Assembly (NCBI GenBank): GCA_018970145.1
Contig: JAGWWY010000009.1
Location: 1-64,000 of the forward strand
DNA length: 64,000 nt
Direction: 5' to 3'
Source of the DNA: Gammaproteobacteria bacterium
GTDB lineage: Bacteria > Pseudomonadota > Gammaproteobacteria > Steroidobacterales > Steroidobacteraceae
A program made the position numbers and the translations under genes. Positions 13,643 through 30,853 of the stretch are shown piece after piece. Every line of letters begins with the position of its first letter. Within the stretch, counting starts at the first letter, position 1. The notes under the pieces are model-generated. The model made no database searches. It was not told the origin of the DNA and saw nothing but the letters and a program-made list of their open reading frames with translations.

Positions 13643-14992
13643 TTATTTTTCGTTTGACAGGTAACGATCGAGCTCGCGATGGAAATGTCGAATACGGCAT
13701 TCCTGCTCGCTCCAGATCGGACCACGAAATCCCCGTGAACGACTTCCGGCGCCAACGGCATGCACTAGCTCGACGTCTTGATTGAGCACCTCACCGAGAT
13801 CCGCCGATTGTCCCTCGCCGAATCGCTCGATGGGTGGGCGGGTCGCGCCGGTGATATCGGTACCCTTTGGTAATCCCATCCACGCGGGGACAAAGTAGTT
13901 CGGATCGTCGACATGACGAAACATCGTGATGTTGTCGTAGTAGAACTTTTTCGGGTCGTCGGGATGCGGCAGGAACCGCATGATGAAGACGCCTTCCGGG
14001 TGACAACCGATTTGTACGTTCGGGAATAAGCCCGTCGCCCAGCTGTCAGTGAGCTGGCCATCAACGAAGTTGTCGTAGTGAGAGAGGCCCAGGCGTTTCG
14101 CTCTCTCTCGCTTGCTGCGCTGTACGGCTTCGCGCACGCCGCTCGCTGAACCGTGATAAGAGTCGGGATCCATCCCCGCGTCTTGCATCATGAAGCGAAG
14201 CCCGGCATCGACGGATTGTTGGTCCGTAACTCGATGCGATTTGACGCATAGCGGTACGATCATTCGACTGAAGCCATTCGGATAAAGGTCGTATTGGCTG
14301 AAGTCCTCCATGACCGTTTGTGTCTGCGGATGGATGTGGGGTAGGTGATAAGTTTCATAGAAAGAGTCCACACCCACTTTCCAGTTCGCGTTCCATACCG
14401 TCCGGACGTGACGAACTGGATTCATCTCATCGATTCGATAATTTTCGAGATAGCCCTTGGGCAGTCCGATCCAGTCGGTAAGCGGCGCTGCTTTGCCATC
14501 TAAATTCACGAACACCAAGCCGGCATGGGTGTCGCAGCGAATCTCGGTTAGCCCGGGGCGATGTGCGACCAGCGCCGGCGGAAAGGTGGCTTCGTCAGTG
14601 ATGGTCTTGAGCGAGCCATTGCAACCAAATCTCCAGCCGTGAAACGCGCAGGTAAAGTCGCTCACGCTGCCAAAATCGTTCAACGCCACTCTATTGCCGC
14701 GGTGGGAACAGACGTTGTAAAAGGCGCGCAGAGAGCCGTCATCTTGGCGAACGATCAAGACGGACTCGTGTCCGATTTCGAAGGTGAAGTAATCGCCAGG
14801 CTCCCGGACGTCGGCGGTGACTCCCGCTAGCAACCAGACACGCGGCCAGAGCTGCGCCCACTCTCGACGCATGAAATCCTCGGCGTAATAACGAACCGGA
14901 TCGGGCACATCGAGCCCGTTATCGACGGCTTGTCGCTTAGCTTCGAGCGAATCGGCAGGTGCGTTGGGGTTGACGGCGTAGGTGTAGGGCAT
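13643..14992 (-). CDS. Rieske non-heme iron oxygenase, alpha subunit (RO1)
   Basis: 449 residues. The Rieske [2Fe-2S] site is C95-x-H97 (C-S-H-R-G-N) and C115-x2-H118 (C-A-F-H-G-W). The mononuclear iron site follows N-W-K-V-G-V-D, with His216 and His221; the residue three before His216 is Glu213, where naphthalene-type dioxygenases have Asp. That places it near the choline/carnitine monooxygenase branch. The C-terminus ends with Q-E-C-R-I-R-H-F-H-R-E-L-D-R. It needs an electron donor not found next to it. It is divergent from TonB receptor 2 across a 196-base control region. Confidence 0.92.
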   Translation of the reverse strand: MPYTYAVNPNAPADSLEAKRQAVDNGLDVPDPVRYYAEDFMRREWAQLWPRVWLLAGVTADVREPGDYFTFEIGHESVLIVRQDDGSLRAFYNVCSHRGNRVALNDFGSVSDFTCAFHGWRFGCNGSLKTITDEATFPPALVAHRPGLTEIRCDTHAGLVFVNLDGKAAPLTDWIGLPKGYLENYRIDEMNPVRHVRTVWNANWKVGVDSFYETYHLPHIHPQTQTVMEDFSQYDLYPNGFSRMIVPLCVKSHRVTDQQSVDAGLRFMMQDAGMDPDSYHGSASGVREAVQRSKRERAKRLGLSHYDNFVDGQLTDSWATGLFPNVQIGCHPEGVFIMRFLPHPDDPKKFYYDNITMFRHVDDPNYFVPAWMGLPKGTDITGATRPPIERFGEGQSADLGEVLNQDVELVHAVGAGSRSRGFRGPIWSEQECRIRHFHRELDRYLSNEK

Positions 14993-15081: not shown

Positions 15082-15188
15082 GATTTTTTTATATCCTACC
15101 ACCACACTGATACGGTAGCGTGAAAGTTGCGTTTCGGTCTGTCTGCAAGACGAAAGCGAAAAGACAAATTTACACAGGGGATAACAGG

Positions 15189-17738
15189 ATGCTCAACACA
15201 TACGGACGAACTGTGCAGCGCGCGGTTCGATCGAGTCTGCTGGCGAGTGCTCTAACGGTTGCGGCAGCGGCTCATGCGCAGCAACCGGCTGAGGAAGAGA
15301 TTCGTCTCGATGAAGTTACCGTCACTGCATCGCGTGGTGCATCGGCCACGGACCTGCAGTCGACCCCGATTTCGGTATCTGCGGTCACCTCCGCCGATAT
15401 CGATCGATTGGTCGCCAAGGACATCTCGGGGCTTGCCTCGGCAGTGCCGGGTTTCTCAGCCGCTCGAATTACGGCGTTCAACGCTGCATCGTTCGCGATG
15501 CGCGGTGTCGGTTTAACCGACATCATCGTTTATCAAGATTCGCCGGTCGGTGTGCAGGTAGACGACTTCGTTATGCCAAGCGTGCAGACGCAACTTCTCG
15601 ACACGTTCGACATCGAGGGCGCTGAGGTTTTGCGCGGACCGCAAGGTACTCTGTTCGGAAAGAACACGACGGGCGGCGCGGTCAACATCCGTACGAAGCG
15701 CCCCAACATGTCGGAGTTCGGTGCTCAGCTGCGGCTGGGTTATGGCAGTTTCGGTTCGCGACGGATTCAAGCGGCCGTCGATTTGCCGCTGCAGCAGGAC
15801 GTCTTCGCTTTACGTCTCGTCGGCTCGATCGCCGAATCGGACGGCTATTACAAGTTGGGGGCGACTTACGGCCCAATCAACACACTCAACATCTTCGGTG
15901 GTACCTTCGCCCCCTTCAACATCCCGGGTGTGACCGGCCAAAAGGGCGCTGGTACCGGCGAGACGACGGGCGGTGATGACGTTGTCAACGGACGCATCAA
16001 AGCGCAGTGGAATGTGTCGGACGATCTGACCGTGCTGCTGCAGGTCGAAAAGATGCGCGACCGATCGGATGCCGTCCCCGCGTTCAACGACACGCCACCG
16101 GGCGGACCTTATCTTTGGAACGTTCTCGGGTTTACTCGTCCAACGGGCGATCCGCTCGATAATATGGGTTCGACCCAGCGCGGTGATTCACTGCTTGCCA
16201 TGGACAAAGGACAAAAGATCGACGTAGATGGCGTCTATCTGAATGTCGAGTGGGATTTGGGTGCGCATCGGCTGTTCGCGGTCGCTGGATCGCGCGATCA
16301 GGATGAGCATCTCCCGAACACCTATACGGGTGCTGCACCGATCAACTCGATCACCAAGCAGCCGTTGTCTTTGTTCGATGCGACGCGCGATACCACACGC
16401 GAAACCAAGCAGATTGAAGTCCGACTCGCCTCGGACACCGATGGTGCTTTCAAGTACGTGGTCGGCGGATTTCAGCAAACGAACGATGCAAAATTCTGCG
16501 TCGTACAATTGCTCGGTTTCATCGATCTTGCGTTGCCGTTCGCCGCACTTGGCCTGCCTGCTCAGTTCAACAACAACACGCCGCAGGTGTTGTGTAACCA
16601 GCAAGACTCCGATTCGTTGGCCGGTTTCGTCGATCTGACTTATCAGGTCAGCGACAAATTCCAACTCGGTGCTGGCTTCCGCCATACCAAGGACGAGCGT
16701 GAGTGGGCGGGTCGTACTCAAGTCGGCTTCGGTGCCCTCGATCCGAAGAACCCGAACTTGACCGCGGCTCAACTGGGAAATCCGTTGGCTGCTGGCGACT
16801 TCACTCGCTATCCCGGCGGACAAATTGTCAATGCCTCTACCAAGGGCTTCGAGAATCTGCAGCGTAGCTGGTCCGAACCCAGCTGGCGTCTGACCGGTTC
16901 TTATCAGTGGACCGACAGTCTGTTTAGCTACCTGACGATTTCGCGGGGCTACAAGGCCGGTGGCTATAACGATCAGACCGGCACTAGCGGTTTGATGGTG
17001 CCGTCGTTGACCCGCCCGGTGGATCCGGAATACGCGACCAACTATGAATTCGGACTGAAGTTCGAGTCGGAGGATGGTCGATTCCGTTTCAACCCTACGG
17101 TTTTCTCAACTCTGTATGAAGATGCGCAACGCGCGGTCAACATCATCACCAAGAAGGGTGGAGCAGACTTCCAAGAGACGGTGTTCTACAACGCTGCCGA
17201 GGTCAAGTCGCAGGGCATTGAGCTCGAAATGCAGGCGTTGGTAACGGACTCGTTCCGGATCCGTGGCCAGGCCGCGTTTCTCGATGCCAAGTACGACAAG
17301 TTCGTGATCACCCAGCCTGGGCTCGTCGATGCTGTCAGCGGTGGTCAGATTGTGGCATTCAACGGCGACTTCTCCGGTCTGCCGGTGCCGCGCTCGCCGA
17401 AGACCAGCGGAGCTATTTCGGGCACCTACACGACTGATCTGGCCAGTGGTTCGCTGGATGTGACGGGTGAGGTGTACTACGAAGACGCCAACCTGTTCTA
17501 TATCTCCGCCGCTGGGCGTCAGTACGATGCGTACCTCGACGAGAAGACGCTGCTAAATCTATCCGTGACCTACACCGATGGTCAGGATCGATTCTTCGTC
17601 CGTGCCTACGGTAAGAATCTCTCCGATGAGCGATACCGAGTTGCGTCACAATCCGTCGCTACGTTGTGGACCCACACGCAGTGGGGCGCGCCGCGAAGCT
17701 ACGGCATCGAGGTGGGAGTGAACTTCGGCGGTAAGTGA
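15189..17738 (+). CDS. TonB-dependent outer-membrane receptor 2
   Basis: 849 residues from the ATG at 15189 (GGGG about 9 bases upstream); a GTG at 15120 opens the same frame but would spoil the signal peptide. Signal peptide to about residue 32 (A-H-A-Q-Q), TonB box near I-R-L-D-E-V-T-V-T-A, plug with L-R-G-P-Q-G-T-L-F-G-K-N-T-T-G-G-A. The barrel ends R-S-Y-G-I-E-V-G-V-N-F-G-G-K. This is the receptor class common in sphingomonad-like degraders of aromatics and steroids. Sharing a promoter region with RO1 suggests it imports the island's substrate. Confidence 0.92.
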   Translation: MLNTYGRTVQRAVRSSLLASALTVAAAAHAQQPAEEEIRLDEVTVTASRGASATDLQSTPISVSAVTSADIDRLVAKDISGLASAVPGFSAARITAFNAASFAMRGVGLTDIIVYQDSPVGVQVDDFVMPSVQTQLLDTFDIEGAEVLRGPQGTLFGKNTTGGAVNIRTKRPNMSEFGAQLRLGYGSFGSRRIQAAVDLPLQQDVFALRLVGSIAESDGYYKLGATYGPINTLNIFGGTFAPFNIPGVTGQKGAGTGETTGGDDVVNGRIKAQWNVSDDLTVLLQVEKMRDRSDAVPAFNDTPPGGPYLWNVLGFTRPTGDPLDNMGSTQRGDSLLAMDKGQKIDVDGVYLNVEWDLGAHRLFAVAGSRDQDEHLPNTYTGAAPINSITKQPLSLFDATRDTTRETKQIEVRLASDTDGAFKYVVGGFQQTNDAKFCVVQLLGFIDLALPFAALGLPAQFNNNTPQVLCNQQDSDSLAGFVDLTYQVSDKFQLGAGFRHTKDEREWAGRTQVGFGALDPKNPNLTAAQLGNPLAAGDFTRYPGGQIVNASTKGFENLQRSWSEPSWRLTGSYQWTDSLFSYLTISRGYKAGGYNDQTGTSGLMVPSLTRPVDPEYATNYEFGLKFESEDGRFRFNPTVFSTLYEDAQRAVNIITKKGGADFQETVFYNAAEVKSQGIELEMQALVTDSFRIRGQAAFLDAKYDKFVITQPGLVDAVSGGQIVAFNGDFSGLPVPRSPKTSGAISGTYTTDLASGSLDVTGEVYYEDANLFYISAAGRQYDAYLDEKTLLNLSVTYTDGQDRFFVRAYGKNLSDERYRVASQSVATLWTHTQWGAPRSYGIEVGVNFGGK

Positions 17739-17823: not shown

Positions 17824-18393
17824 TCAGCCGACCGGCGCGAGGGGGCAATAGTCCTCCTTCTCGACGACATCAACCACGAAGGAAAGCTTCGCCATTCCGC
17901 CGATGATGGCCATCACTACGCCCAGTTCCAAAATCTGCGCTTCGGAAAAGCGCTCGCGCAGACGCGCGAATAAAGCTGGGCTCAGCGCACCTCTCATATT
18001 GGTCAGCACCATCTGGTCTGCGTATTCGATGACGGCCAACTCCGCTGCGTCGAAGAGTTCCGAGTCAACCTGCTCCGCCGCCATCGACGCTGTTTGTGCC
18101 GGCGAGAGTCCCGCTGCGATCGCACCAGGAATATTTTGTTTGTTGCAGGTGCGACAGCCGTGTACGAGCGAGAGCCGCAGTCGTGCGATTTGCTTGTAGC
18201 GCTGCTCGACGACGCCTCCAAAGAAAACCTTCGCGTAGAACTCGTTCATGACGAGATCGAGAAGATGAGGCGCCTGAGCAAAGACCTCGATAAAGGTCGG
18301 CTCACCGGTGAGTGCGTTCAGCATGTCCCAAGCTGGGGCGACGTCTGCGCCCAACTCGGTCCGAGGCGTACGTGTGAATAGCGTGTCCGTCAT
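17824..18393 (-). CDS. Carboxymuconolactone decarboxylase / AhpD-like protein
   Basis: 189 residues from the ATG at 18393, whose bases overlap the stop of the upstream dehydrogenase (TAATG). The CMD helix carries C-R-T-C (in V-H-G-C-R-T-C-N-K-Q-N), the redox pair of AhpD-like proteins; the His normally four residues after the second Cys is Asn. It is the last gene of a five-gene minus-strand unit (RO2, HMGS-DUF35, thiolase, SDR, this). Members act as peroxidase partners or decarboxylases; which one applies is unknown. Confidence 0.85.
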   Translation of the reverse strand: MTDTLFTRTPRTELGADVAPAWDMLNALTGEPTFIEVFAQAPHLLDLVMNEFYAKVFFGGVVEQRYKQIARLRLSLVHGCRTCNKQNIPGAIAAGLSPAQTASMAAEQVDSELFDAAELAVIEYADQMVLTNMRGALSPALFARLRERFSEAQILELGVVMAIIGGMAKLSFVVDVVEKEDYCPLAPVG

Positions 18394-19292
18394 TAGCGAT
18401 CGCCAACTTTGAACCAGTCGGGAATACCTCCTGGCCAGACATCGCCCCACATCTGATTGCCGCCATCGACGACGAGTGTCTCACCAGTGATGAACTTACC
18501 CGTGATATCGGCACCGACATGTACGACGGACTGCGCGATATCGAACGCATCGCCGTACTGACGCAGCGGGTTCGCGTTACCGAATCGGGCGGCAGCCTCC
18601 GGAGGGTAGACGTTCAATCCTTCGGTGGCGATCGAGCCCGGCGAGATGCAATTGACACGGATGCCAAGCGGCGCCCATTCGATCGCGACGGACTTACTGA
18701 GATAGATGACGCCGGCGCGCGCCGCGCAGGTGTGGGCCACTTGCGGCATGCCGCGCCATACATTAGCCACGATATTGACGATTGAACCGCGGCTCTTTTG
18801 ATCGCGCCACGCTTTGGCGGCGGCTTGCATCATCCACCAGGTGCCGTTGAGATTGGTGTCGATGACCGCGTTCCATCCTTTGACGGAGTAGTCGATCGCC
18901 GGTTGCGGAAACTGCCCGCCGCCATTATTTATCTGCAGGTCGAGTTTGCCGAAACGCTGAATGGTCTCATCGATCAGGGCGTTCACCTGTTCGGGATCGC
19001 GAATCGTCATAGCGCGATAGCCAATGTCGCGACCGAGATTCGTGCGGATACTCTCGGCGGTTTCGGCGAGTCGATCTTCTCGGCGGCCACAGATCATCAC
19101 ATCGGCGCCGAGACGAGTGAGCAAAAATGCCATCGCTCGCCCAAGTCCGCTGCCACCGCCGGATATGAGACAAACCTTGCCGGCTAGAAGATCGTCTCGG
19201 AAAGCATGCGGACGCTTTGCGAGCTCCTCATCCGTCAAACCCCATTGACGGGTTGCTGGTGGAGGTCGCTTGAGTGGGGTGGTAGCTGACAT
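18393..19292 (-). CDS. Short-chain dehydrogenase/reductase, enoyl-CoA reductase-like (SDR A)
   Basis: 299 residues with an N-terminal extension of about 35. The nucleotide loop is S-G-G-G-S-G-L-G and the N-N-A-G element is N-N-G-G-G. The usual catalytic Tyr-x3-Lys is missing: the aligned segment reads H-T-C-A-A-R-A-G-V, as in peroxisomal trans-2-enoyl-CoA and 2,4-dienoyl-CoA reductases, which do not use that Tyr. NADPH reduction of an unsaturated acyl-CoA is therefore the best guess. It sits between the thiolase and the CMD gene, and overlaps the latter by one base. Confidence 0.85.
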   Translation of the reverse strand: MSATTPLKRPPPATRQWGLTDEELAKRPHAFRDDLLAGKVCLISGGGSGLGRAMAFLLTRLGADVMICGRREDRLAETAESIRTNLGRDIGYRAMTIRDPEQVNALIDETIQRFGKLDLQINNGGGQFPQPAIDYSVKGWNAVIDTNLNGTWWMMQAAAKAWRDQKSRGSIVNIVANVWRGMPQVAHTCAARAGVIYLSKSVAIEWAPLGIRVNCISPGSIATEGLNVYPPEAAARFGNANPLRQYGDAFDIAQSVVHVGADITGKFITGETLVVDGGNQMWGDVWPGGIPDWFKVGDR

Positions 19293-19311: not shown

Positions 19312-20514
19312 TTAAAGTGATTTCAAACCGAACAGGGAGACGCTGGCGATATTTCGGTTGGGAATACCGCCGAGGTTGTGGCTGAGGCCGATGCTAGGTG
19401 CAGCCAATTGACGCGGTCCCGCTCGTCCGAGCAACTGGTTGTAAATCTCGTAGACCATCCTGATACCGGAGGCACCAACGGGATGACCAAAGCATTTCAA
19501 ACCGCCGTCGGTTTGGCAGGGATTGCGACCGTTTCGGTCGAAGCAGCCATCGAGGATATCTCGCACCGCCTGGCCCTCATCGGCAAAGCCGAGATCCTCC
19601 ATCAACACCAGTTCGGTAATCGAAAAACAATCATGTACCTCCAGCAGTGACACTTCCCGCCGTGGATCGGTGATTCCCGCTTCGTGATATGCGCGTTGGG
19701 CGGCTAGCCGAGTCGTGGGCGTGTACGCTCCGTCCCAACCCGCATGCGACAACTCGTAACCGTTCGAGGGGACGAGTTGCATGGCTTTGATGACGACAGC
19801 ATCGTGCCGACCCATTTGACGGGCGATTTCCGGCGTAGTGACGATAGCGCAGGCGGCGCCATCGGAGACTCCGCAGCAATCGAGCACGCCGAGCGGCGAT
19901 GCGATCATCGGAGCTGCCAGCACTTGCTCGATGGATATTTCTTTGCGCAAATGGGCTTTCGGCGAAGCCATAGCATTGGCGTGACTTTTCACCGAGACAT
20001 GCGCCATCGCTTGCTTGAGTTGATCGATGGCGATTCCATGCTTCGCCGCGTAGGCGGCACCGAGCTGTGCAAAAGCCCCGGGTGGAGTGAATCCGGGCTG
20101 CCAAAGATCCTCGAAGGTACCTTTGGTTCGTTCAGGTAAGCCGCCAAAGCCAGTATCTTTGAGCTTCTCGACACCCATGGCCAGCGCGATGTCACAGGCA
20201 CCCGCAGCAACAGCATAGGCCGCGCCGCGCAGCGCTTCTGTGCCCGTCGCGCACAAATTCTCAACGCGTGTCACGGGAATGTTCGGCAATCTCAATGCCA
20301 TCGACAACGATAGCGCTGACTTGGAGACGCTTTGTTCATCGTAGAAAACGCCAAGCCACGCCGCGTCAAGTTGATCACGGCCGATACCGGCATCCCGAGT
20401 CGCCTCATCGAAGGCCTCTCGCATCAGATCGTCTGCGCCTGCGTCCCACCGCTCGCCAAATCGAGCGCAGCCCATGCCGATGATGGCGACTTTGTCCCGT
20501 ATGCCTTTCGCCAT
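19312..20514 (-). CDS. SCP-x-type thiolase
   Basis: 400 residues. Cys88 in E-N-L-C-A-T-G-T is the expected acyl-accepting Cys, and H-D-C-F-S-I-T-E-L and G-H-P-V-G-A-S-G complete the SCP-x/lipid-transfer thiolase pattern. The second Cys of classical thiolases is not in its usual place, as is normal for this group. The gene follows the HMGS-DUF35 fusion with a two-base gap, so they probably form a complex, as Ltp2/DUF35 aldolases and the PhlABC acyltransferase do. Role: C-C bond cleavage or formation on a CoA ester. Confidence 0.88.
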   Translation of the reverse strand: MAKGIRDKVAIIGMGCARFGERWDAGADDLMREAFDEATRDAGIGRDQLDAAWLGVFYDEQSVSKSALSLSMALRLPNIPVTRVENLCATGTEALRGAAYAVAAGACDIALAMGVEKLKDTGFGGLPERTKGTFEDLWQPGFTPPGAFAQLGAAYAAKHGIAIDQLKQAMAHVSVKSHANAMASPKAHLRKEISIEQVLAAPMIASPLGVLDCCGVSDGAACAIVTTPEIARQMGRHDAVVIKAMQLVPSNGYELSHAGWDGAYTPTTRLAAQRAYHEAGITDPRREVSLLEVHDCFSITELVLMEDLGFADEGQAVRDILDGCFDRNGRNPCQTDGGLKCFGHPVGASGIRMVYEIYNQLLGRAGPRQLAAPSIGLSHNLGGIPNRNIASVSLFGLKSL

Positions 20515-20516
20515 GG

Positions 20517-21971
20517 TCAGTGACTTCCGTTACGAAATCCGACGACAGGTGCGGCTTTCCAGAAGTATCGACGGAATCCGCGCAGGCGATCGACATCTTT
20601 TAGACGAAAAACGAACCGTACCTCCTGACCGACGGCAGCTTCATTCGGTGCGAAGTCGGTGAATTCGATGAACGCGTTGCCGCCGCTTTCGAACGCGACG
20701 TTACCGTATACCAACGGCGGCCGTTGACTATAGGCAAGCCAGTCTTCTGTGAAAGTCTTGATACGCCCGTGCTGTTCGTTGAGTGCAATGGGATCTTGCC
20801 GGCCAAGTTGACGACAGCTCGGTTCAACACAGGCGCCACTGAGGGGAAATTGGATCGTCCCGCAGCGAACACAGCGACCGCCGGTCAAGGTCAACAGTTC
20901 GTCGTGCCGTCGCCATGCAACCGTTTGTGCCGTACGGTTGTCACGCTCGCTACGCATCCCGAACTCCGGCGTCAACAAGCCGCAGTGTGCGAGAAATCGC
21001 GTGTACGACTGCTCTTCGAGTCGCTCCTGCAGGGCTGTCGCGACTGGTCTTGAACGACGCCATGCGTCGATCGCCGAGGTGACTTCAAACAAAAGCACAT
21101 CAACGCCTTGTCCGAACCCCACGAGTACGATGCGCTCACCAGCGTTAGCCTTCTCCAGAACTGCAGCGAGCATAAGCAGCGGGTGACCCGTGCCGGTGTC
21201 TCCTACTCGATCGTACAGGTTGTCTGCCAGCCGATCTGCCGGTATGCCCGATAGCACCGCAAGTTTTTTACCGACGTTACTCGAGACGTTGACAAGCAGA
21301 TGCGCGACGTCGGTCGGCAACCACGATTTCTCGCTCAGCAGATCGACGATCGCTGCCGGTACCTGCTTTTGCCACCCTTCCTCGCTCACCCAACGCTCTT
21401 CTAGACTGTAGTCGAAGGACGAATCGGCAAGCCGGTGATGGTCAACGAAATCCGCTGCGTGATGACTGCTACCTACATATCGCGCGATGACCGCTCCGTC
21501 GCCGACGAGGAGCGCAGCTCCCGCGTGACCATAAGTCATTTCCTGCTCGCTTCCCGGCTTTGCGAGTCGACGATCCGCTCCGATCACCAGCGTGTTCTTT
21601 GACGATGAGTGGAGCATCGCCTGCGCCAAACTGCTGGTACCGGCGCGTTGTGAGCCGGCAGAATCCTGCGTGCTGACGGTCGACGAGAGCCCGAGCGCGC
21701 CGGCCACGATTGTCGCGTTGCTGCGATCGGCAAACGGCAGTGTCGTCGACGCCAGCACGACGTTTGAGATCGATTGCCGCGCGATGTCGCGCAAGGCTCC
21801 TCTGGCCGCTTCGACACCCATCGTCAGGGTGTCTTCGTCCCAATTGCAGACAGTGCGTTCGCCTCGCTGCCGGTTCAGCCCCGGATTGACCCAAGCCATC
21901 GCTCTTGCCACGACGGCCCGCGGCAGTCGCAAGCTTGGGATGCATACACCGAATGCGAGCACTCCGCGCAT
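20517..21971 (-). CDS. HMG-CoA synthase-like domain fused to DUF35 (Zn ribbon + OB fold)
   Basis: 484 residues. I use the ATG at 21971, one base after the stop of RO2; an upstream codon at 22040 would lie inside RO2. Residues 1-330 are a thiolase-fold domain of the HMG-CoA synthase type, opening G-V-L-A-F-G-V-C-I-P. At the nucleophile position the sequence is A-G-S-Q-R-A-G-T, with Ser107-Gln108 in place of Cys. Residues 345-484 are DUF35: a zinc ribbon (C-V-R-C then C-V-E-P-S-C) and an OB fold. The lost Cys and the neighbouring SCP-x thiolase suggest a partner or decarboxylating subunit rather than a true synthase. Confidence 0.82.
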   Translation of the reverse strand: MRGVLAFGVCIPSLRLPRAVVARAMAWVNPGLNRQRGERTVCNWDEDTLTMGVEAARGALRDIARQSISNVVLASTTLPFADRSNATIVAGALGLSSTVSTQDSAGSQRAGTSSLAQAMLHSSSKNTLVIGADRRLAKPGSEQEMTYGHAGAALLVGDGAVIARYVGSSHHAADFVDHHRLADSSFDYSLEERWVSEEGWQKQVPAAIVDLLSEKSWLPTDVAHLLVNVSSNVGKKLAVLSGIPADRLADNLYDRVGDTGTGHPLLMLAAVLEKANAGERIVLVGFGQGVDVLLFEVTSAIDAWRRSRPVATALQERLEEQSYTRFLAHCGLLTPEFGMRSERDNRTAQTVAWRRHDELLTLTGGRCVRCGTIQFPLSGACVEPSCRQLGRQDPIALNEQHGRIKTFTEDWLAYSQRPPLVYGNVAFESGGNAFIEFTDFAPNEAAVGQEVRFVFRLKDVDRLRGFRRYFWKAAPVVGFRNGSH

Positions 21972-21972
21972 G

Positions 21973-23184
21973 TCAGGCGGCGATCCAGTCCGCCAGCATC
22001 GGCTTAACGCGTAAGTGCTCAGGGATCCGTTCGGGTCCAATACGACGATCCAGCTCCTCGTGCCAGTGGTAGATACGACGCTCTTGATAATTCAAGTTGA
22101 TGCCGCGGAACGCACCGGATTCGACAGACTCCTGAATCTGCTCGGCAAATTGTGTGTCTTCTTCGAGGATGCGTTCGAAATTGCTCAATCGTTGTTCCCA
22201 CAGCGGCGACAACCCCTCGTCACCCCAGTCAGGAGCAAACCAGACGATTTCGATTTCCATGCTCTTGTGACCAGTCGGCCAAAATAAAATGAACGGGTTG
22301 CCGGTTGCGTCGATCGGCGTGACGAGATTCGGGTAGAGGTTGAAGGAGGGGTTGTTCGATAACGTAATTTCGGTCGCTGTCTCGATGCGTCGCATACCTC
22401 GCGTGCCGGGGTCTTGCCAGTCCGGGCGCCGGTTGGGCGTGCACATCAGCGAGTGTCCGCGCTGCCAGAGCGTGATAAACGAGCCGCGATGATCGAGGAA
22501 TCGATCAACGGTATTCTGGTGGATTGACTTCAGGTGATACACCTCGAGAAACGCATCCAGCAGAATTTTGACGTTACACCTCACCGGATAGGATTTCTTG
22601 TGTACGAAACGCACTTGCTGCGGCTGAATTTCCTCGAGCATGTTTGGGATCGGTGCGAGGTGTGGCAGCAACGGTTCTGCAGCACGATCTTCGTTGATGA
22701 AAATCCAATTGCCGATCGATTCGCATCGAACCTCTAACAGCGGAAACTTCGACAAGTCCAAATCCACGAAGTCGCGCTTGTCGCGCAGATTAATCAGACG
22801 GCCATCGAGACCGTAAGTCCATCCGTGATAGCCGCAGACAAGACCCTCGATTTTGCCGCTGCATTGCTTCACCAAGGGCGCCCCTCGATGACGACAGGAA
22901 TTGTAGAACGCGCGGACGACACCGTCTTTGCCGCGCACGACGATGATCGGGGAACCAGTTCGCTTGAAGAGGGTGAAACTACCGGGCTCGGCGATTTCAT
23001 CGGCATGACAGGCGTAGAGCCACGAGCGACGCCAGAGGTATTGCTGCTCAAGATCCAAAAAAGAAGGGTCGGTGTAGCGAGCACCGGGGATCATCGGCAG
23101 TGCGGGGAAACCGCGTGGCGGGGCGGTCCGCTCGCCCTCGGCCCGCATGCCGGCCTTCAACAATTCGACCGTGGCCGCATCCAT
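21973..23184 (-). CDS. Rieske non-heme iron oxygenase, alpha subunit (RO2)
   Basis: 403 residues; AGGAG nine bases before the ATG. Rieske ligands C97-x-H99 (C-R-H-R-G-A) and C117-x2-H120 (C-G-Y-H-G-W). The iron site follows N-V-K, not the common N-W-K, with the pattern E-V-Y-H-x4-H; Glu again replaces the bridging Asp. A later E-E-D-T-Q-F-A-E-Q-I supplies the Asp ligand. It leads the five-gene unit ending at 17824 and is divergent from a GST-like gene. It is clearly different from RO1 and RO3, so it probably acts at another step. Confidence 0.92.
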   Translation of the reverse strand: MDAATVELLKAGMRAEGERTAPPRGFPALPMIPGARYTDPSFLDLEQQYLWRRSWLYACHADEIAEPGSFTLFKRTGSPIIVVRGKDGVVRAFYNSCRHRGAPLVKQCSGKIEGLVCGYHGWTYGLDGRLINLRDKRDFVDLDLSKFPLLEVRCESIGNWIFINEDRAAEPLLPHLAPIPNMLEEIQPQQVRFVHKKSYPVRCNVKILLDAFLEVYHLKSIHQNTVDRFLDHRGSFITLWQRGHSLMCTPNRRPDWQDPGTRGMRRIETATEITLSNNPSFNLYPNLVTPIDATGNPFILFWPTGHKSMEIEIVWFAPDWGDEGLSPLWEQRLSNFERILEEDTQFAEQIQESVESGAFRGINLNYQERRIYHWHEELDRRIGPERIPEHLRVKPMLADWIAA

Positions 23185-24223: not shown

Positions 24224-25438
24224 TCAAATCACCCGATCAGCACGCCAGAGGTCGCGTTGCTTGGCGTCGAAGCCAAGCGATTCGAGCACCGCATCGGTGT
24301 GCTCGCCAAGCGTAGGCGGACGTTGACGGATGCCCGTCTGCGATCGCGTGAAGCGCAGCGGCAAGTCGGGAACCGGCGCCGATCTCGGCAACCCGGGGTA
24401 ATCCTCGATGGGTGTGAACCAGCGCATGGCTGCGGCTTGCGGGTCCTCGAGCGCGCTTTGCGGTGTGTAGACGGGTCCGGCCGGTATGCCCGCCGAGTCG
24501 AGTTCGCGCAGTGCGTCGCTAGTCAAGCGCGTCGAACACCAGCGATGCATTCGCTGCAAGATGGCCTCGGAGTTTTGGCCGCGCCCGTCGTCACTCTGGA
24601 AGCGCGCGTCGTCGATCCAACGCGTCAGCTCGCCCGGGTTGTCACGATCCATGAGTTTGGCCCAACGTTTGAAAAGCCCGTTGCCGACGCAGTGTGTGAG
24701 CAGGTGCCCGTCACGAGTCGCGAATACGTCCGAAGGCGCCGAGGTTTGTACGCGGTTGCCGGTGCCAACGCGGTTGATGCCTGTGACGCCTTGCTCGATG
24801 AGATGCGAGCCGAAAACAGCCAACGCCGTCGCCTGCAAGGCAGCGCTGACCTGCTGACCAGACCCGGAGCGATCCCGTTCCATGAGCGCAGCGAGGACGC
24901 CGAACGCCGACAGCACGGCGGTGGCGTAATCGACATACGGAGCAGCCGCTTTCGCAGGGCTGCCCGGCGTGCCTGTGATGTACATCGCGCCGGACATCGC
25001 CTGACCGACGCCGTCGAAGCCACCGCGCGAGGCATAGGGGCCGTGCTCACCGAAAGCGGTTTGGGTCGCGAGAATGATGCGCGGGTTGATACGCTGCAAC
25101 GATGCGAGATCCAACCCCAAAGATCGACAACTCGCGGGCGGCAAATTCACGACGACGACGTCTGCGCCGGCAACCAGTTTTTCAATGATCGGTCTGGCCG
25201 CAGGGTGACCGAGATCCAGAGTGATCGACTTTTTGTTACAACCGGTCTGCATGAAGACCGCGCCCTCACCCTGGGCTGTGACCGGTGCGATGTAGCGATC
25301 CTCACCGCCTTCTGGGCGCTCGATGCGCACCACCTCCGCGCCGAGATAGCCGAGCAACGTCGCGCAGTATGGGCCGGCGACGTAGCGGCCGAAGTCGAGT
25401 ACGCGGATATGACCGAGGATGGATTCGTTTTGATTCAT
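24224..25438 (-). CDS. CaiB/BaiF family (class III) CoA-transferase
   Basis: 404 residues from the ATG at 25438. Family marks: R-V-L-D-F-G-R-Y-V-A-G-P near the start, N-K-K-S-I-T-L-D-L, and the catalytic Asp in G-G-F-D-G-V-G-Q-A-M-S-G. It moves CoA from one acyl-CoA to a carboxylic acid without ATP. Its start codon is only 14 bases from the start of the divergent acyl-CoA dehydrogenase gene, so at least one promoter must lie inside the other gene. Likely job: activating a pathway acid. Confidence 0.92.
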   Translation of the reverse strand: MNQNESILGHIRVLDFGRYVAGPYCATLLGYLGAEVVRIERPEGGEDRYIAPVTAQGEGAVFMQTGCNKKSITLDLGHPAARPIIEKLVAGADVVVVNLPPASCRSLGLDLASLQRINPRIILATQTAFGEHGPYASRGGFDGVGQAMSGAMYITGTPGSPAKAAAPYVDYATAVLSAFGVLAALMERDRSGSGQQVSAALQATALAVFGSHLIEQGVTGINRVGTGNRVQTSAPSDVFATRDGHLLTHCVGNGLFKRWAKLMDRDNPGELTRWIDDARFQSDDGRGQNSEAILQRMHRWCSTRLTSDALRELDSAGIPAGPVYTPQSALEDPQAAAMRWFTPIEDYPGLPRSAPVPDLPLRFTRSQTGIRQRPPTLGEHTDAVLESLGFDAKQRDLWRADRVI

Positions 25439-25452
25439 GGGGGACTTGTGTA

Positions 25453-26613
25453 ATGAACTTTTCGTTGACTGAGGATCAGCTGGCTTTGCAGGAGACCGCG
25501 CGCAAATATGCGCGTGAGAGATTGCCATCTTTCGCCAGTCACTGCGAGATACATGACGAAGCGCCGCCTGCCGAATTGGTGCGTGAATTCGCCGAGATGG
25601 GATTCCTCGGGATCAATGTCTCGAGCAACTATGGTGGACTCGGTCTCGGCAACGTCGAGGCCTTGATTGTGATCGAGGAGCTCGCCAAGGTTTCTGGTGC
25701 GGTCGCTTTTCCGGTGTTCGAGTCGTGTGTTGGGCCTGTGCGTGCGATCGAGCACTTTGCCTCTGAGACACTGCGACAGCACGTGATTCCGGCAGTCTGC
25801 CGGGGTGAAAAAATGGTGGCTGTGTCCATGTCTGAGCCCAACGCGGGATCGGCGTTGACGGATTTGACGACCAAGGGTGTCAGACAGGGCGATCGAATCG
25901 TTCTCAACGGCACAAAACGTTGGTGTTCTGGCGGTGGTCACGCCGACGGCTACGTCGTCTATTGTCGTCTGTCTGATGATCCGGGTCCGAAAGGTATCGG
26001 CGCGGTCTACGTCGAAAAAGCGACGCCCGGGCTTAGCTTCGGCGCACGCGAACATTTGATGGGTTTTCGTGGCGTGCCATCGTCGGATCTAATTTTTGAA
26101 GACTGTGCTGTTCCACTTGATCATGTCGTAGTTCCAGCCGGCGGCTTCAAACAATTAATGGAAGCGTTCGATCTTGAACGCTGCGGTAACGCAACGATGG
26201 CTTTGGCACAAGCCTCGGGTGCGCTCGAGGACGTGATCGCCTATGTGAAAGAGCGTAAGCAGTTCGGCAAACCGATCGTCGAGTTCCAAGCTGTTCAGTT
26301 ACGCCTCGCCGAAATGGCGATGCGGGTCGATGCAGCCCGCTTGTTGATTTGGCGTGCGGCGGCCAATGCGGAAAAGGGGTTGCCGTCGATCCTCGAGTCT
26401 TCCATGGCCAAATGCTTCGCCAACGAGATCGCGCGTGAGGTGTGTGGACATGCCGTGCAATTGATGGGCGGTTACGGCTACTCTCGCGAATATCCAATGG
26501 AGCGGCGTCTGCGCGACGCGTGGGGATGGGGTATCGCGGGTGGCGCGGTTGATATCCAAAAGGTCAATATCGCTGCCGCGATGGTGGGACGTCGCTTCGA
26601 TCAACGTCGCTGA
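25453..26613 (+). CDS. Acyl-CoA dehydrogenase (IVD/LCAD-like base position)
   Basis: 386 residues from the ATG at 25453 with GGGGGA upstream. The FAD-binding pattern is complete (S-M-S-E-P-N-A-G-S, K-R-W-C-S-G-G, R-K-Q-F-G-K-P, M-G-G-Y-G-Y). At the position of the catalytic Glu of MCAD the protein reads I-A-G-G-A-V-D-I-Q, so that Glu is absent. Glu242 in F-D-L-E-R-C matches the base position of isovaleryl-CoA and long-chain dehydrogenases. A branched or bulky acyl-CoA is a reasonable substrate. It is followed by an ABM-like gene on the same strand. Confidence 0.9.
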   Translation: MNFSLTEDQLALQETARKYARERLPSFASHCEIHDEAPPAELVREFAEMGFLGINVSSNYGGLGLGNVEALIVIEELAKVSGAVAFPVFESCVGPVRAIEHFASETLRQHVIPAVCRGEKMVAVSMSEPNAGSALTDLTTKGVRQGDRIVLNGTKRWCSGGGHADGYVVYCRLSDDPGPKGIGAVYVEKATPGLSFGAREHLMGFRGVPSSDLIFEDCAVPLDHVVVPAGGFKQLMEAFDLERCGNATMALAQASGALEDVIAYVKERKQFGKPIVEFQAVQLRLAEMAMRVDAARLLIWRAAANAEKGLPSILESSMAKCFANEIAREVCGHAVQLMGGYGYSREYPMERRLRDAWGWGIAGGAVDIQKVNIAAAMVGRRFDQRR

Positions 26614-26947: not shown

Positions 26948-27739
26948 TCAACGATCCTTACTTTGGCGCATTGCGGCGTTGATCTCGGACGGTGAGGGAT
27001 TTCGTCGCAAGGTGAGTCCACCGTTGATCTGTAGGGTCTCGCCGGTGACGAAACTCTCGTCACTCGCAAGCCATACCGCTGCATTGGCGACATCGGCCGT
27101 CGTTCCGAGCCGTCCTAGTGGATATTCTTTTCGGAACACGTCAAGCAAGGCGGGAATTGCCGCTTCGCGCGAGGTCATCGGAGTTTCGGTGAAACCTGGC
27201 GCGATGGCGTTGACCTTGATACCGCGCGCACCGAATTCATTTGCGAAGCAGCGTACCAGCGCTTCGCTCGCCGCTTTGGTCGCGATGTAGGCGGCGTGGT
27301 GGTAGAGCAGAGCACGTACCGAGGCTGACGATACCGTGATGATCGAGCCGCCGCCGCTTTTAGACATCTCGGCGACAAAGGCTTGCAGGAAAAAAAACGT
27401 GCCTTTGAAATGCAGTGCAGAGAGTTGATCAAGTTGCTCCTCGGTGGTCTCCAGCAACTTCGCGAGCAAGCCCCATCCCGTACAGTTGATGGCAACATCA
27501 ACCTTTCCATACCGCAAAGCAGTGGTGGCTGCGAGTTTGTCGACATCCGCCTTGTCCGTGACATCGCACAACAGATGATCGCCATCGATCTCGCTCGCGA
27601 GAGAGACTAGGGTCTCTGCGTGTCGTCCCGCTACGACTACTTTGGCGCCTTCGACCGCCAGTCGTCGTGCAATGACTTGGCCCATGTTATCGACACCAGC
27701 TGCACCGAGTATGACCGCCACTTTTCCTGCCAGTCTCAT
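26948..27739 (-). CDS. Short-chain dehydrogenase/reductase (SDR B)
   Basis: 263 residues. AGGAG seven bases before the ATG at 27739 settles the start, which overlaps the VOC1 stop by four bases (ATGA). The cofactor loop is G-A-A-G-V-D-N-M-G rather than the plain G-x3-G-x-G, then S-S-A-S with Tyr and Lys in A-Y-I-A-T-K-A-A. The active-site residues are intact. It is the last gene of the 13-gene minus-strand run. It oxidises or reduces a hydroxyl/keto group, substrate unknown. Confidence 0.9.
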   Translation of the reverse strand: MRLAGKVAVILGAAGVDNMGQVIARRLAVEGAKVVVAGRHAETLVSLASEIDGDHLLCDVTDKADVDKLAATTALRYGKVDVAINCTGWGLLAKLLETTEEQLDQLSALHFKGTFFFLQAFVAEMSKSGGGSIITVSSASVRALLYHHAAYIATKAASEALVRCFANEFGARGIKVNAIAPGFTETPMTSREAAIPALLDVFRKEYPLGRLGTTADVANAAVWLASDESFVTGETLQINGGLTLRRNPSPSEINAAMRQSKDR

Positions 27740-28311
27740 GAGTTCACTCCTGACGAACGTTGATTTTGCAATTCCCGCAAGGGGCGTTGACCATCCCAAC
27801 CGTCAGCTTTACGTGCGACAAACCGGTAGAAGTCGCGCAGCGCATCGGAGGGTTCGTACAGCTCCAAGAAATGTCCGAACACCCGCCGAGTATCTATCAT
27901 GGTGAAAGACACACCGGTCGCGGTACGTGCCGATAGCGCCGTCGCGAAACCGTCAGTTTCTAATTGGTTTGTCGATATGGCGAGATCGTCGACGAAGCAC
28001 GCCACGTGATGCAGACCGGACTGATCGCGCGCAAACTGCTCGCGCAGCACTGAGGGTGAGTCATCGGCTTGCGAGATGAGTTCGATCATCATGTCACCGG
28101 CCTGCCCGTAGGCAGAGGAATGCACGAACGGCCGTGCGACACCGCGATACCACGATTCGGAAAGCGCAATCCGCTCCATCAAGTAAAACGGGCCCCAACC
28201 AAAACGACGGGAGTAGTCGAGCGCAGCGCTTCGGGCGTCGGGGACGTGGTAGGCGAGTTGAACCGGCTGCAGCTGCAGCGCTTTGATCGCAACTGGCGAT
28301 CCTGGCAACAT
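27736..28311 (-). CDS. VOC superfamily protein VOC1
   Basis: 191 residues, from the ATG at 28311, which overlaps the VOC2 stop by one base; a GTG at 28314 is an alternative. It shares with VOC2 the phrases W-G-P-F-Y-L-M-E (there V-G-P-F-F-L-M-E) and W-D-G-x-x-P-L-R near the C-terminus, so the two are paralogues from one duplication. H-H-V-A-C and E-L-Y-E are probable metal-ligand strands. Likely an isomerase, epimerase or extradiol-type step acting on a pathway intermediate. Confidence 0.85.
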   Translation of the reverse strand: MLPGSPVAIKALQLQPVQLAYHVPDARSAALDYSRRFGWGPFYLMERIALSESWYRGVARPFVHSSAYGQAGDMMIELISQADDSPSVLREQFARDQSGLHHVACFVDDLAISTNQLETDGFATALSARTATGVSFTMIDTRRVFGHFLELYEPSDALRDFYRFVARKADGWDGQRPLRELQNQRSSGVNS

Positions 28312-28865
28312 CACCCGATCTTGCGTAGCGGCTTGCTGCCGTCCCAGTTGATGGCGGCCTTGCGAACGATCTCGAAGAAGCCGTCGATCGCAGCGCCGCT
28401 TTCGATCAGTTCGATCATGCAGCCAGGATACGCGCCTGGCCGAGTGTCAGTATCGACGTAGGCAAAGCGAACGCCGTTACCGGTGCTGCCGGACTGCACG
28501 GCATAAACGCCGCACGACTCGAGACGGCGTAGATCGTCGGCGACCGACGCGGTCATTACACCGAAGTGCTGAAGTCCGCCGCGCGACGAGCAATCGGTGG
28601 TGTTGTAGATACTTGGAGTGGCATCGTGTTGGTGGATCAACTCGACTTGGACAGCGCCCCATTGCGCAACCGCAACCGACATATCGATTTCGGTCCGTTG
28701 TCCGCGATAGATACACTCCGCGAAACTGATGTGTTCCATCAGGAAGAAAGGACCGACGCCGATAGAGGTCCAGTAATGCACTGATGCTGGGATATTCGGC
28801 ACGACAAAACCCAGCTGCATGACCGGGCCGAAAGCGGTGACCGCCGTCGGCGTTTCAGCCGACAT
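28311..28865 (-). CDS. VOC superfamily protein VOC2
   Basis: 184 residues, same fold and length as VOC1. The first strand is M-Q-L-G-F-V-V-P-N, the metal site is probably L-Q-H-F-G and M-I-E-L-I-E. Its start overlaps the end of the ABM2 gene by 11 bases and its stop overlaps VOC1, so the three are made together. Two half-similar VOC proteins side by side may form a heterodimer. Confidence 0.85.
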   Translation of the reverse strand: MSAETPTAVTAFGPVMQLGFVVPNIPASVHYWTSIGVGPFFLMEHISFAECIYRGQRTEIDMSVAVAQWGAVQVELIHQHDATPSIYNTTDCSSRGGLQHFGVMTASVADDLRRLESCGVYAVQSGSTGNGVRFAYVDTDTRPGAYPGCMIELIESGAAIDGFFEIVRKAAINWDGSKPLRKIG

Positions 28866-29188: not shown

Positions 29189-30853
29189 TCAGTCCAGACC
29201 GAGCTCGCTGACGAGCGCAGTGCGCAACTTGAATTTCTGGATCTTGCTCGAGGACATCGGCCATTCGGTGACGAAACGGATTTGTCTCGGTACCTTGAAG
29301 CTCGCAATATCCCTGCGACAAAACTCCACTAGTTCGTCCGGGCTCGCCGAGCAGTCGGGTTTTAATTCGACGAACGCAGCGGCGACTTCTGCATATTTTG
29401 CATCGGGGATGCCGACGACCTGTGCCAGTTTGACCGCCGGATGTTTCTGCAGATGCGATTCGATCTCGGCAGCTGCGACGTTCTCGCCGCCGACCTTCAG
29501 CATGTCCTTGAATCGACCGTAGAACATGATCGTACCGGCGGCATCGAGAGCACCGATGTCGCCGGTGTGAAACCATCCATCGCGATCAAGCGCGCTAGCG
29601 GTTTTTTCAGCATCGCGGTAATAACCCTCAAAAAGACTGTAACCGCGCACCAGGACTTCACCACGTTCTCCGACGGGTTGATCGACACCCGTATCCGGAT
29701 CGACGATCCGAACCTCCAACCCGGGGAGTGGTCGACCGAGACGTGTAATTCGTTGTTGCTCAGGCTCACTGGGCGAGCCTGTGGTGACTGTGCCCGAGGC
29801 CTCCGTCATGCCGAAGCTGCCTACCTGCAGTGCGTTTGGCATTGCTGCCATGATCGGCTGCGCTACTCCAGGTGGTTGTACGGCAAAGTTAGAATTCATC
29901 AGTTTGATGCTGGACAAATCTCGCTTCGCGAAATCCTCGTGATAAATGAGTCCTTGCATGATGGTCACGAAACTGGGGTACGTTGCAGTGACTTTGTATT
30001 CCTCCAGCATTCGCAGAGCGAGACCAGCATCGAAGTAACCCATCGTGATGTAGGTTCCGCCCACATCGAAAATCGCGAGCATCGGCAGCACTGCGGCGAT
30101 ATGAAACATCGGTAGCGGTGACCAGAGTGAGTCGTTGGCTGTCAATCGATAGCGGTGCCGGCCCAATGCGATCGAATTACGTACCTGTGCTTCGTGCGTG
30201 ATGAGACAGCCCTTTGGATTGGCCGTGGTGCCCGAGGTATAAAGCATCAGCGCAACATCGCGTACGCGAGTTTGGAGCCGAGTCTTGTGTACTTCGACTT
30301 CGTCGATCGAGTCGGCGAGCGTCCAAAAGGTCGCTTGGTTGACGAAACCAGCCCGATCGCTACCGCCAAGAAGCACGAGATTGCGTAACTTCGGAGCTGC
30401 AGCCAATCGGACCCGCAACGCATCGCTCTGTGTGCCGATATCCGGCAGGGCGCCTTCGAGACGCTCGACAAAGTTCACTTGATCGGCAACCGCGTCTGTC
30501 GTGATCAACGTCACCAGGTCCGCGTTCTCGATGACGTAGCCGATTTCCGCGGACTTGTAGCGCGCATTGATCGGTACGATTACTGCTCCACACAGGGCGA
30601 TGGCGAAGTACAGTTCGACAAACTCCGCGCAGGTGTGCATCAGGATGCCGACGTGGTCGCGGCGTTTGACTCCGAGGGCCTGCAAGCTACGTGCGAGCCG
30701 AATTGACCGGTTCGCCAACTGCGCATAGGTGTAGTGAACCTCTGGAAACACCAGGGCCAACTTGTCCGGATTGCGATCAGCGGCGGTCAGTAGCAAGTCA
30801 CCCATGGTGGTGACATGGATTCGCAGGGACGAGAGATCTTCGGACATGGGCAT
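29189..30853 (-). CDS. Acyl-CoA ligase (AMP-forming), ligase A
   Basis: 554 residues. ATP/adenylate motifs are intact: Y-T-S-G-T-T-A-N-P-K-G, F-G-M-T-E-A-S-G, G-W-F-H-T-G-D-I, and the C-terminal Lys of K-I-Q-K-F-K. It joins CoA to a carboxylic acid through an acyl-AMP. Medium-chain or cyclic acids fit this class. It is the ninth gene of the run from 39743, 11 bases after the PQQ dehydrogenase gene, which could oxidise an alcohol to supply the acid. Confidence 0.92.
   Translation of the reverse strand: MPMSEDLSSLRIHVTTMGDLLLTAADRNPDKLALVFPEVHYTYAQLANRSIRLARSLQALGVKRRDHVGILMHTCAEFVELYFAIALCGAVIVPINARYKSAEIGYVIENADLVTLITTDAVADQVNFVERLEGALPDIGTQSDALRVRLAAAPKLRNLVLLGGSDRAGFVNQATFWTLADSIDEVEVHKTRLQTRVRDVALMLYTSGTTANPKGCLITHEAQVRNSIALGRHRYRLTANDSLWSPLPMFHIAAVLPMLAIFDVGGTYITMGYFDAGLALRMLEEYKVTATYPSFVTIMQGLIYHEDFAKRDLSSIKLMNSNFAVQPPGVAQPIMAAMPNALQVGSFGMTEASGTVTTGSPSEPEQQRITRLGRPLPGLEVRIVDPDTGVDQPVGERGEVLVRGYSLFEGYYRDAEKTASALDRDGWFHTGDIGALDAAGTIMFYGRFKDMLKVGGENVAAAEIESHLQKHPAVKLAQVVGIPDAKYAEVAAAFVELKPDCSASPDELVEFCRRDIASFKVPRQIRFVTEWPMSSSKIQKFKLRTALVSELGLD

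Follow-up and report, generated by a model that had tools for sequence, protein, structure and literature searches.

A gene pair in a Steroidobacteraceae genome raises the question of what an HMG-CoA synthase (HMGS)-like protein does beside an intact thiolase when its own catalytic residues are gone. The pair lies in a 64,000-nucleotide stretch of a Gammaproteobacteria bacterium (assembly GCA_018970145.1, contig JAGWWY010000009.1, positions 1 to 64,000), hereafter the window, and all coordinates are positions within this whole window rather than within the feature. Positions 19312-21971 hold precisely two minus-strand genes with 2 bases between them. One encodes a fusion of an HMGS-like domain and a DUF35 domain, and the other a thiolase. 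From the residues and the gene order, we propose that the two products form one heteromeric, coenzyme A (CoA)-dependent SCP2-type thiolase with the fusion as its non-catalytic partner, and we give this reading a probability of about two in three.

20517..21971, minus strand: HMGS-like/DUF35 fusion protein, 484 amino acids (ATG at 21971; stop ends at 20517)
19312..20514, minus strand: SCP2-type thiolase, 400 amino acids (NCBIfam PRK06157, 645 bits)

Domain Composition of the Fusion Protein

21042..21971, minus strand: HMGS/KASIII-like domain, about residues 1-310 (Foldseek of the AlphaFold2 (AF2) model)
20532..20921, minus strand: DUF35 domain, a zinc ribbon and OB fold with an RRYFWK motif at its end
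20814-20873, minus strand: zinc-ribbon Cys367, Cys370, Cys381 and Cys386 of the DUF35 domain

The N-terminal part of the fusion matched the NCBIfam model PRK04262 at 1.9e-49 (168.5 bits, under the curated cut-off of 244), and the fusion scored 118.9 bits against TIGR00748, under the curated cut-off of 353. In sequence comparisons with the PDB, the best match of this part was PhlA (2.6e-28), and archaeal HMGS was found at 3.4e-17. The fusion was modeled with AF2 as a single chain (predicted local distance difference test, pLDDT, 77.5). Foldseek of this model returned PhlA first (5mg5, E 1e-23), then archaeal HMGS (6esq, E 1e-21) and MucA. The stretch VDHHR...DYSLEERW (fusion residues 176-194; 21390-21446) is among the most conserved of the protein, yet it has the lowest model confidence within the HMGS-like domain; possibly it takes on order only once a partner or ligand is bound.

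The C-terminus has the four-Cys zinc ribbon followed by an OB fold that defines DUF35 proteins. It matched the DUF35 chain of the archaeal complex (6esq_E) at 6e-7 as a single sequence and at 7e-13 as a profile. The profile also matched PhlB (1.6e-10) and the DUF35 subunits of MucABC and ChsH2. The Pfam domains zf-ChsH2 and OB_ChsH2_C were hit by 59 and 55 of 60 relatives, respectively, with the window sequence alone just under the cut-offs. When the domain was modeled separately (pLDDT 83), the best Foldseek matches were the 6esq DUF35, PhlB, MucABC and BbsA. Several fusion proteins have lost zinc-ribbon cysteines of the DUF35 domain (loci L111, L116, L120, L122, L127 and L148), so that not every member needs to bind zinc.

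Loss of the HMGS Active Site

21636..21659, minus strand: A-G-S-Q-R-A-G-T, fusion residues 105-112, aligned with FACKAGT of archaeal HMGS 6esq
21648-21650, minus strand: Gln108 at the nucleophile Cys position, compared with Cys114 of 6esq and 115 homologues
21744..21746, minus strand: Thr76 at the position of the HMGS catalytic Glu (Glu82 of archaeal HMGS)

The catalytic positions were read from an alignment of 115 distinct fusion homologues. These came from Alpha-, Beta- and Gammaproteobacteria, from Rhodococcus, Mycobacterium and Streptomyces plasmids, and from three haloarchaea. The Cys position was occupied by Gln (66), Leu (24), Arg (17) or Thr (3), with single cases of Met, Pro, Gly and Ala and one gap. 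No Cys-bearing member was found among the 115 distinct sequences, Actinobacteria and haloarchaea included. A first set of 104 relatives, from two genome collections that partly overlap, gave Gln in 61, Leu in 26, Arg in 16 and Met in 1. The Glu position was Thr in 112 of 115 homologues. Asn228 of the window fusion occupies the catalytic His position, which was mostly Pro in the homologues and had kept His in only 7. Since the triad is lost throughout the 115 homologues, its loss cannot be put down to chance or a sequencing slip in the window; judged from the alignment, it is old and family-wide. These residues suggest that the HMGS-like domain of the fusion is catalytically dead. A true HMG-CoA synthase was ruled out, as the Glu-Cys-His triad is gone and both the PRK04262 and TIGR00748 scores are under their cut-offs.

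An HMGS-like protein of about 315 amino acids at locus L139 reads GSAQAG without a nucleophile Cys and has no evident DUF35 part. It is possibly another dead HMGS type outside the fusion family.

Active Site of the Thiolase

20251..20253, minus strand: nucleophile Cys88 (102/102 homologues)
19624..19635, minus strand: HDCF motif, His294-Phe297, which includes the acid/base Cys296 (His, Asp and Cys in 102/102)
19480..19488, minus strand: GHP motif with His344 (100/102, two gaps)

Residues of the thiolase were examined in an alignment of 102 thiolases. The window thiolase carries the nucleophile Cys, the HDCF motif and the GHP His that characterize SCP2-type thiolases; the function of HDCF has been assigned by homology (PMC12329534). 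Its best PDB matches were the acetyl-CoA acetyltransferase 7yvy, the archaeal acetoacetyl-CoA thiolase 6esq_A (8e-50) and SCP2-thiolase. It matched archaeal and SCP2 thiolases at 1e-46 to 1e-50, whereas PhlC was matched at only 5e-15. The PhlC reference was taken from a Pseudomonas genome (L156) whose PhlA is a 100% match to 5m3k; within Pseudomonas, the genus holding the 5m3k PhlA, phlA homologues (E <= 1e-60) were present in 15 of 399 sampled genomes. By its residues, the catalytic subunit is a CoA-type SCP2 thiolase.

The first-pass annotation of this locus had described an HMGS-DUF35 fusion without the catalytic Cys next to a thiolase that keeps Cys88. All of this was borne out: the HMGS/KASIII and DUF35 matches agree at the level of sequence, profile and fold, Gln108 aligns with Cys114 of 6esq, the Cys that was looked for is absent from the fusion homologues, and Cys88 is invariant in the thiolases. 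The annotation did not mention the loss of the catalytic Glu and His.

Gene Coupling and Catabolic Neighbourhood

The fusion gene is followed immediately, on the same strand and within 200 bases, by the thiolase gene at 99 of 104 loci. The gaps are mostly below 100 bases, across distant taxa, and in haloarchaea the pair is adjacent but in reversed order. Three of the five exceptions are at contig ends (L008 and L032, apparently the same contig, and L094). This adjacency, which is indirect evidence, and the solved complexes of homologous subunits (6esq, 5m3k and 9vbo) are the grounds on which we infer a physical complex. Fusion and thiolase gave r = 0.81 in a mirror-tree comparison, a value that was not used as evidence because shared ancestry alone can yield it.

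21973..23184, minus strand: Rieske oxygenase alpha subunit, first gene of the tight run (Pfam/PDB)
18393..19292, minus strand: short-chain dehydrogenase/reductase (SDR), nearest to peroxisomal trans-2-enoyl-CoA reductase, 2,4-dienoyl-CoA reductase and a citronellol-catabolism SDR (PDB 6lln)
17824..18390, minus strand: carboxymuconolactone-decarboxylase/AhpD-like (CMD/AhpD-like) protein, last gene of the run
13643..14992, minus strand: second Rieske oxygenase alpha subunit of the conserved cluster
15120..17738, plus strand: TonB-dependent receptor of the conserved cluster
24224..25528, minus strand: class III (CaiB-like) CoA-transferase of the conserved cluster
25450..26613, plus strand: acyl-CoA dehydrogenase of the conserved cluster
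29189..30853, minus strand: AMP-forming acyl-CoA ligase of the conserved cluster
27736-28865, minus strand: two Glyoxalase_4 (VOC) proteins in tandem, within the cluster

The pair belongs to a minus-strand run in the order Rieske, fusion, thiolase, SDR and CMD/AhpD-like, with gaps of 1, 2, 19 and 2 bases; the ATG of the fusion is 1 base past the stop of the Rieske gene. The surrounding cluster (Rieske oxygenases, TonB receptor, CoA ligase, CaiB-type transferase, acyl-CoA dehydrogenase, ABM and VOC) partly recurs in Steroidobacteraceae and at other loci, and a cluster of the same kind was found in Niveispirillum cyanobacteriorum. More distant pairs lie beside MaoC, SDR, acyl-CoA dehydrogenase, enoyl-CoA hydratase and CoA-transferase genes, and the hosts of such clusters include Variovorax, Sphingomonas, Azoarcus, Tistrella and Rhodococcus. 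By gene content, these neighbourhoods are catabolic, beta-oxidation-like and CoA-dependent, and the pair is frequent among bacteria that degrade pollutants and steroids. No curated NCBIfam match above cut-off was obtained for either Rieske protein, the CoA ligase, the CoA-transferase, the acyl-CoA dehydrogenase or the SDRs; we therefore claim no substrate for the cluster. The two distinct Rieske alpha subunits (13643-14992 and 21973-23184) recur in the cluster, and no Rieske beta subunit or reductase was obvious among the window open reading frames inspected.

Proposed Division of Labour in the Two-Component Thiolase

In the proposed enzyme, all chemistry would take place in the thiolase subunit. 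Cys88 would accept the acyl group, and His294 and Cys296 of HDCF together with His344 would carry out the acid-base steps. The degradative direction is the most likely, with cleavage of a 3-ketoacyl-CoA that the oxygenase, ligase, CoA-transferase, acyl-CoA dehydrogenase and SDR enzymes of the cluster would supply. The HMGS-like domain would act as a structural, pocket-forming partner in the manner of PhlA. DUF35 would bridge it to the thiolase and probably assist in holding CoA or the acyl chain, as may be compared with the separate DUF35 subunits of the archaeal and Phl complexes. Thiolase, DUF35 and the dead HMGS-like domain may enclose a cavity like that of PhlACB (PMC6392133), and CoA is probably bound at a joint interface as in 6esq. 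Where the archaeal and Phl complexes use three subunits, the fusion would do the work of two in a single polypeptide.

A broader proposal is put forward only tentatively. The dead HMGS domain, DUF35 and thiolase may share a remodelled pocket, with Thr76 in place of Glu, that admits bulky polycyclic or alicyclic 3-ketoacyl-CoAs. The pair could then represent a widespread, hitherto uncharacterised group of catabolic thiolases with two components, found in both Bacteria and haloarchaea, to which the unassigned gene of aerobic estradiol degradation would belong.

Comparison with Known Complexes

Mutagenesis and structure have shown that PhlC alone is catalytic in PhlACB, and that PhlA has Gly115 in place of Cys and Cys83 in place of Glu (PMC6392133). 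In the order Glu, Cys, His, the triad positions are Cys, Gly and Gln in PhlA and Cys, Glu and Gln in MucA. Like the window pair, PhlACB (PpATase, the 2,4-diacetylphloroglucinol acyltransferase), CsATase (9skh) and MucABC (9vbo) combine DUF35 with a catalytic thiolase-like subunit carrying Cys88, and PhlACB shares with it an HMGS-like subunit without Cys or Glu. However, PhlACB consists of three separate proteins, whereas the HMGS-like and DUF35 parts of the window are one protein.

It has been reported that DUF35 holds the thiolase and HMGS or PhlA together in archaeal and Phl-type complexes (PMC12329534). The archaeal thiolase/HMGS/DUF35 complex (6esq) has the same three modules as the window pair and a comparable thiolase active site, and among these complexes it is the nearest to both the window thiolase and the DUF35 domain. 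In contrast to the window pair, its HMGS is active (Glu82, Cys114 and His), its modules are separate chains and it serves mevalonate synthesis. The BbsAB benzoylsuccinyl-CoA thiolase (7pxp) resembles the window pair in that its SCP2-like thiolase also has a DUF35 partner and serves a degradative pathway of the beta-oxidation type, and both subunits are detectably related. BbsAB has only the thiolase and DUF35 subunits, and no HMGS-like domain was present among the chains matched.

Alternative Explanations

The pair could be a C-acyltransferase of PhlACB/MucABC type, which would transfer acyl groups independently of CoA, with a phenol or beta-dicarbonyl as donor or acceptor, or would deacylate a Rieske-made aromatic intermediate by a retro-Claisen reaction. 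The resemblance to PhlABC noted in the first-pass annotation is real, as PhlA leads the PDB matches of the HMGS-like domain both in sequence and in predicted fold. PhlA and MucA are also the sister clade of the fusions in the tree described below, both systems contain a dead HMGS subunit, and Rieske oxygenases point to aromatic or alicyclic substrates. The catalytic subunits, however, differ. PhlC has YDLL with Tyr298 in place of HDCF, GHASG with Ser349, and His56, and it works without CoA; the window thiolase has HDCF, GHPVG and no His56 equivalent, that is, a full CoA-type SCP2 active site in a catabolic setting. It is also much nearer to archaeal and SCP2 thiolases than to PhlC, and the clusters contain CoA ligases and CoA-transferases, which make such an acyltransferase unlikely. 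We consider an independent role of the HMGS-like domain just as unlikely, be it a new activity or the carrying of a ligand, with another acyl-CoA or intermediate bound or altered in the remodelled Thr76 pocket. The old Cys and His positions hold no fixed plausible nucleophile or base, and PhlC is the sole catalytic subunit of PhlACB. On the other side, the conservation of Thr76 (112/115) and the near-invariance of D177, R180, E191, R193, G257, G260 and G289 across Bacteria and Archaea exceed the strict need of a bare scaffold.

In polyketide loading modules, a KSQ decarboxylase has a fixed Gln at the Cys position and keeps the catalytic His. The first-pass annotation had hinted at such chemistry, in which Gln108 would decarboxylate a malonyl- or methylmalonyl-type thioester and feed the thiolase. 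Although Gln is the commonest residue at this site, Leu, Arg, Thr, Met and others freely replace it in relatives with the same gene pair, and the partner His is lost too, so that we regard this as very improbable. The same holds for the view that fusion and thiolase are physically independent neighbours. It would suit the fusions without an adjacent thiolase at L079 and L104, but the close pairing in distant taxa and the complexes solved for homologous subunits speak against it. Still less credible is the suggested retro-aldolase of Ltp2-ChsH2 or Sal-Shy type, enzymes of steroid side-chain and bile acid catabolism. These share a thiolase fold and a DUF35 partner with the window pair, and its DUF35 domain matches those of ChsH2 and Shy. 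However, Gly replaces the nucleophile Cys in Sal and the Ltp2/Sal motifs are YDHF/YDCY (PMC12329534), whereas Cys88 and HDCF are invariant here, and the partner in Ltp2-ChsH2 and Sal-Shy is a MaoC hydratase instead of an HMGS-like domain. The first-pass annotation had also read the lost Cys as a new division of labour, but the same division is established for PhlACB (PMC6392133). It made no mention of the archaeal thiolase/HMGS/DUF35 complex.

Several observations weigh against a two-component thiolase with a non-catalytic partner. At L104 (L104:10001-17000, a contig of a metagenome-assembled genome (MAG)), the thiolase lies 4.3 kb downstream after other genes, and at L079 (L079:10001-15682, MAG contig) there is none in the 4.2 kb available downstream. 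These two loci break strict pairing, which means that constant co-expression does not extend to all members. Confidence in the single-chain AF2 model of the fusion is only moderate, with block means of 51 and 41 over residues 171-190. Thiolysis cannot be told from condensation by sequence. The conservation of Thr76 and the VDH..R...DY.EERW motif in a dead domain leaves room for an active role.

Evolution of the Fusion

In a maximum-likelihood tree, archaeal HMGS fell outside a clade of PhlA/MucA and all fusions (97/91), within which the fusions (99/95) and the acyltransferase subunits (99/94) were sister clades; in this tree MucA forms a long branch, the bootstrap is unsettled, and PhlA/MucA and archaeal HMGS are thinly sampled. 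Trp27, Gly148 and Gly260 are common to the fusions, PhlA and MucA and are not found in archaeal HMGS. The simplest reading is one loss of HMGS catalysis ahead of the divergence of the Phl/Muc and catabolic lines, with fusion to DUF35 probably taking place later on one branch.

Link to Estradiol Degradation and Significance

Novosphingobium sp. ES2-1 is an estradiol degrader (PMC12507874). Its plasmid p3 (L147) carries the pair, with a fusion that is 32% identical to the window fusion and lacks the Cys. In operon OpA of the edc cluster of Novosphingobium (Caenibius) tardaugens, the order is acyl-CoA dehydrogenase, hydroxyacyl-CoA dehydrogenase, 'HMG-CoA synthase' EGO55_13555 and thiolase EGO55_13550, followed by genes for BadI-like, enoyl-CoA hydratase, lipid-transfer, ChsH2-like and P450 proteins (PMC7793797). 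The authors of that report could not assign EGO55_13555, one of two unplaced edc genes, and judged a condensation there to be senseless (PMC7793797). The adjacent thiolase and 'HMG-CoA synthase' stand in the same order as in ES2-1. From gene order and annotation, we predict that EGO55_13555 is the non-catalytic partner of EGO55_13550.

At least 558 relatives of the fusion protein were confirmed, in hundreds of genomes, and public annotations name it 'OB-fold domain-containing protein', 'KAS III C-terminal domain protein' or 'HMG-CoA synthase'. Dead HMGS-like subunits (PhlA and MucA), DUF35 partners and SCP2 thiolases are already known, and the genes are publicly annotated. What appears to be undescribed is the fused two-gene architecture with an intact thiolase at its core, how broadly it is distributed, and the part it would play in CoA-dependent catabolic clusters, among them, by gene order, the edc operon with its unassigned gene. 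Searches of the open-access literature, subscription papers being outside this coverage, turned up no biochemical work on the fusion protein.

The loci L079 and L104 could be used to learn if the fusion works far from a thiolase gene. Should the tree hold, a single loss of HMGS catalysis preceded the split between Phl/Muc and catabolic systems and fusion came afterwards, which would add a step to the evolution of this family. If the fusion is indeed the non-catalytic half of a thiolase, its annotation would be corrected and EGO55_13555 would gain a testable role.

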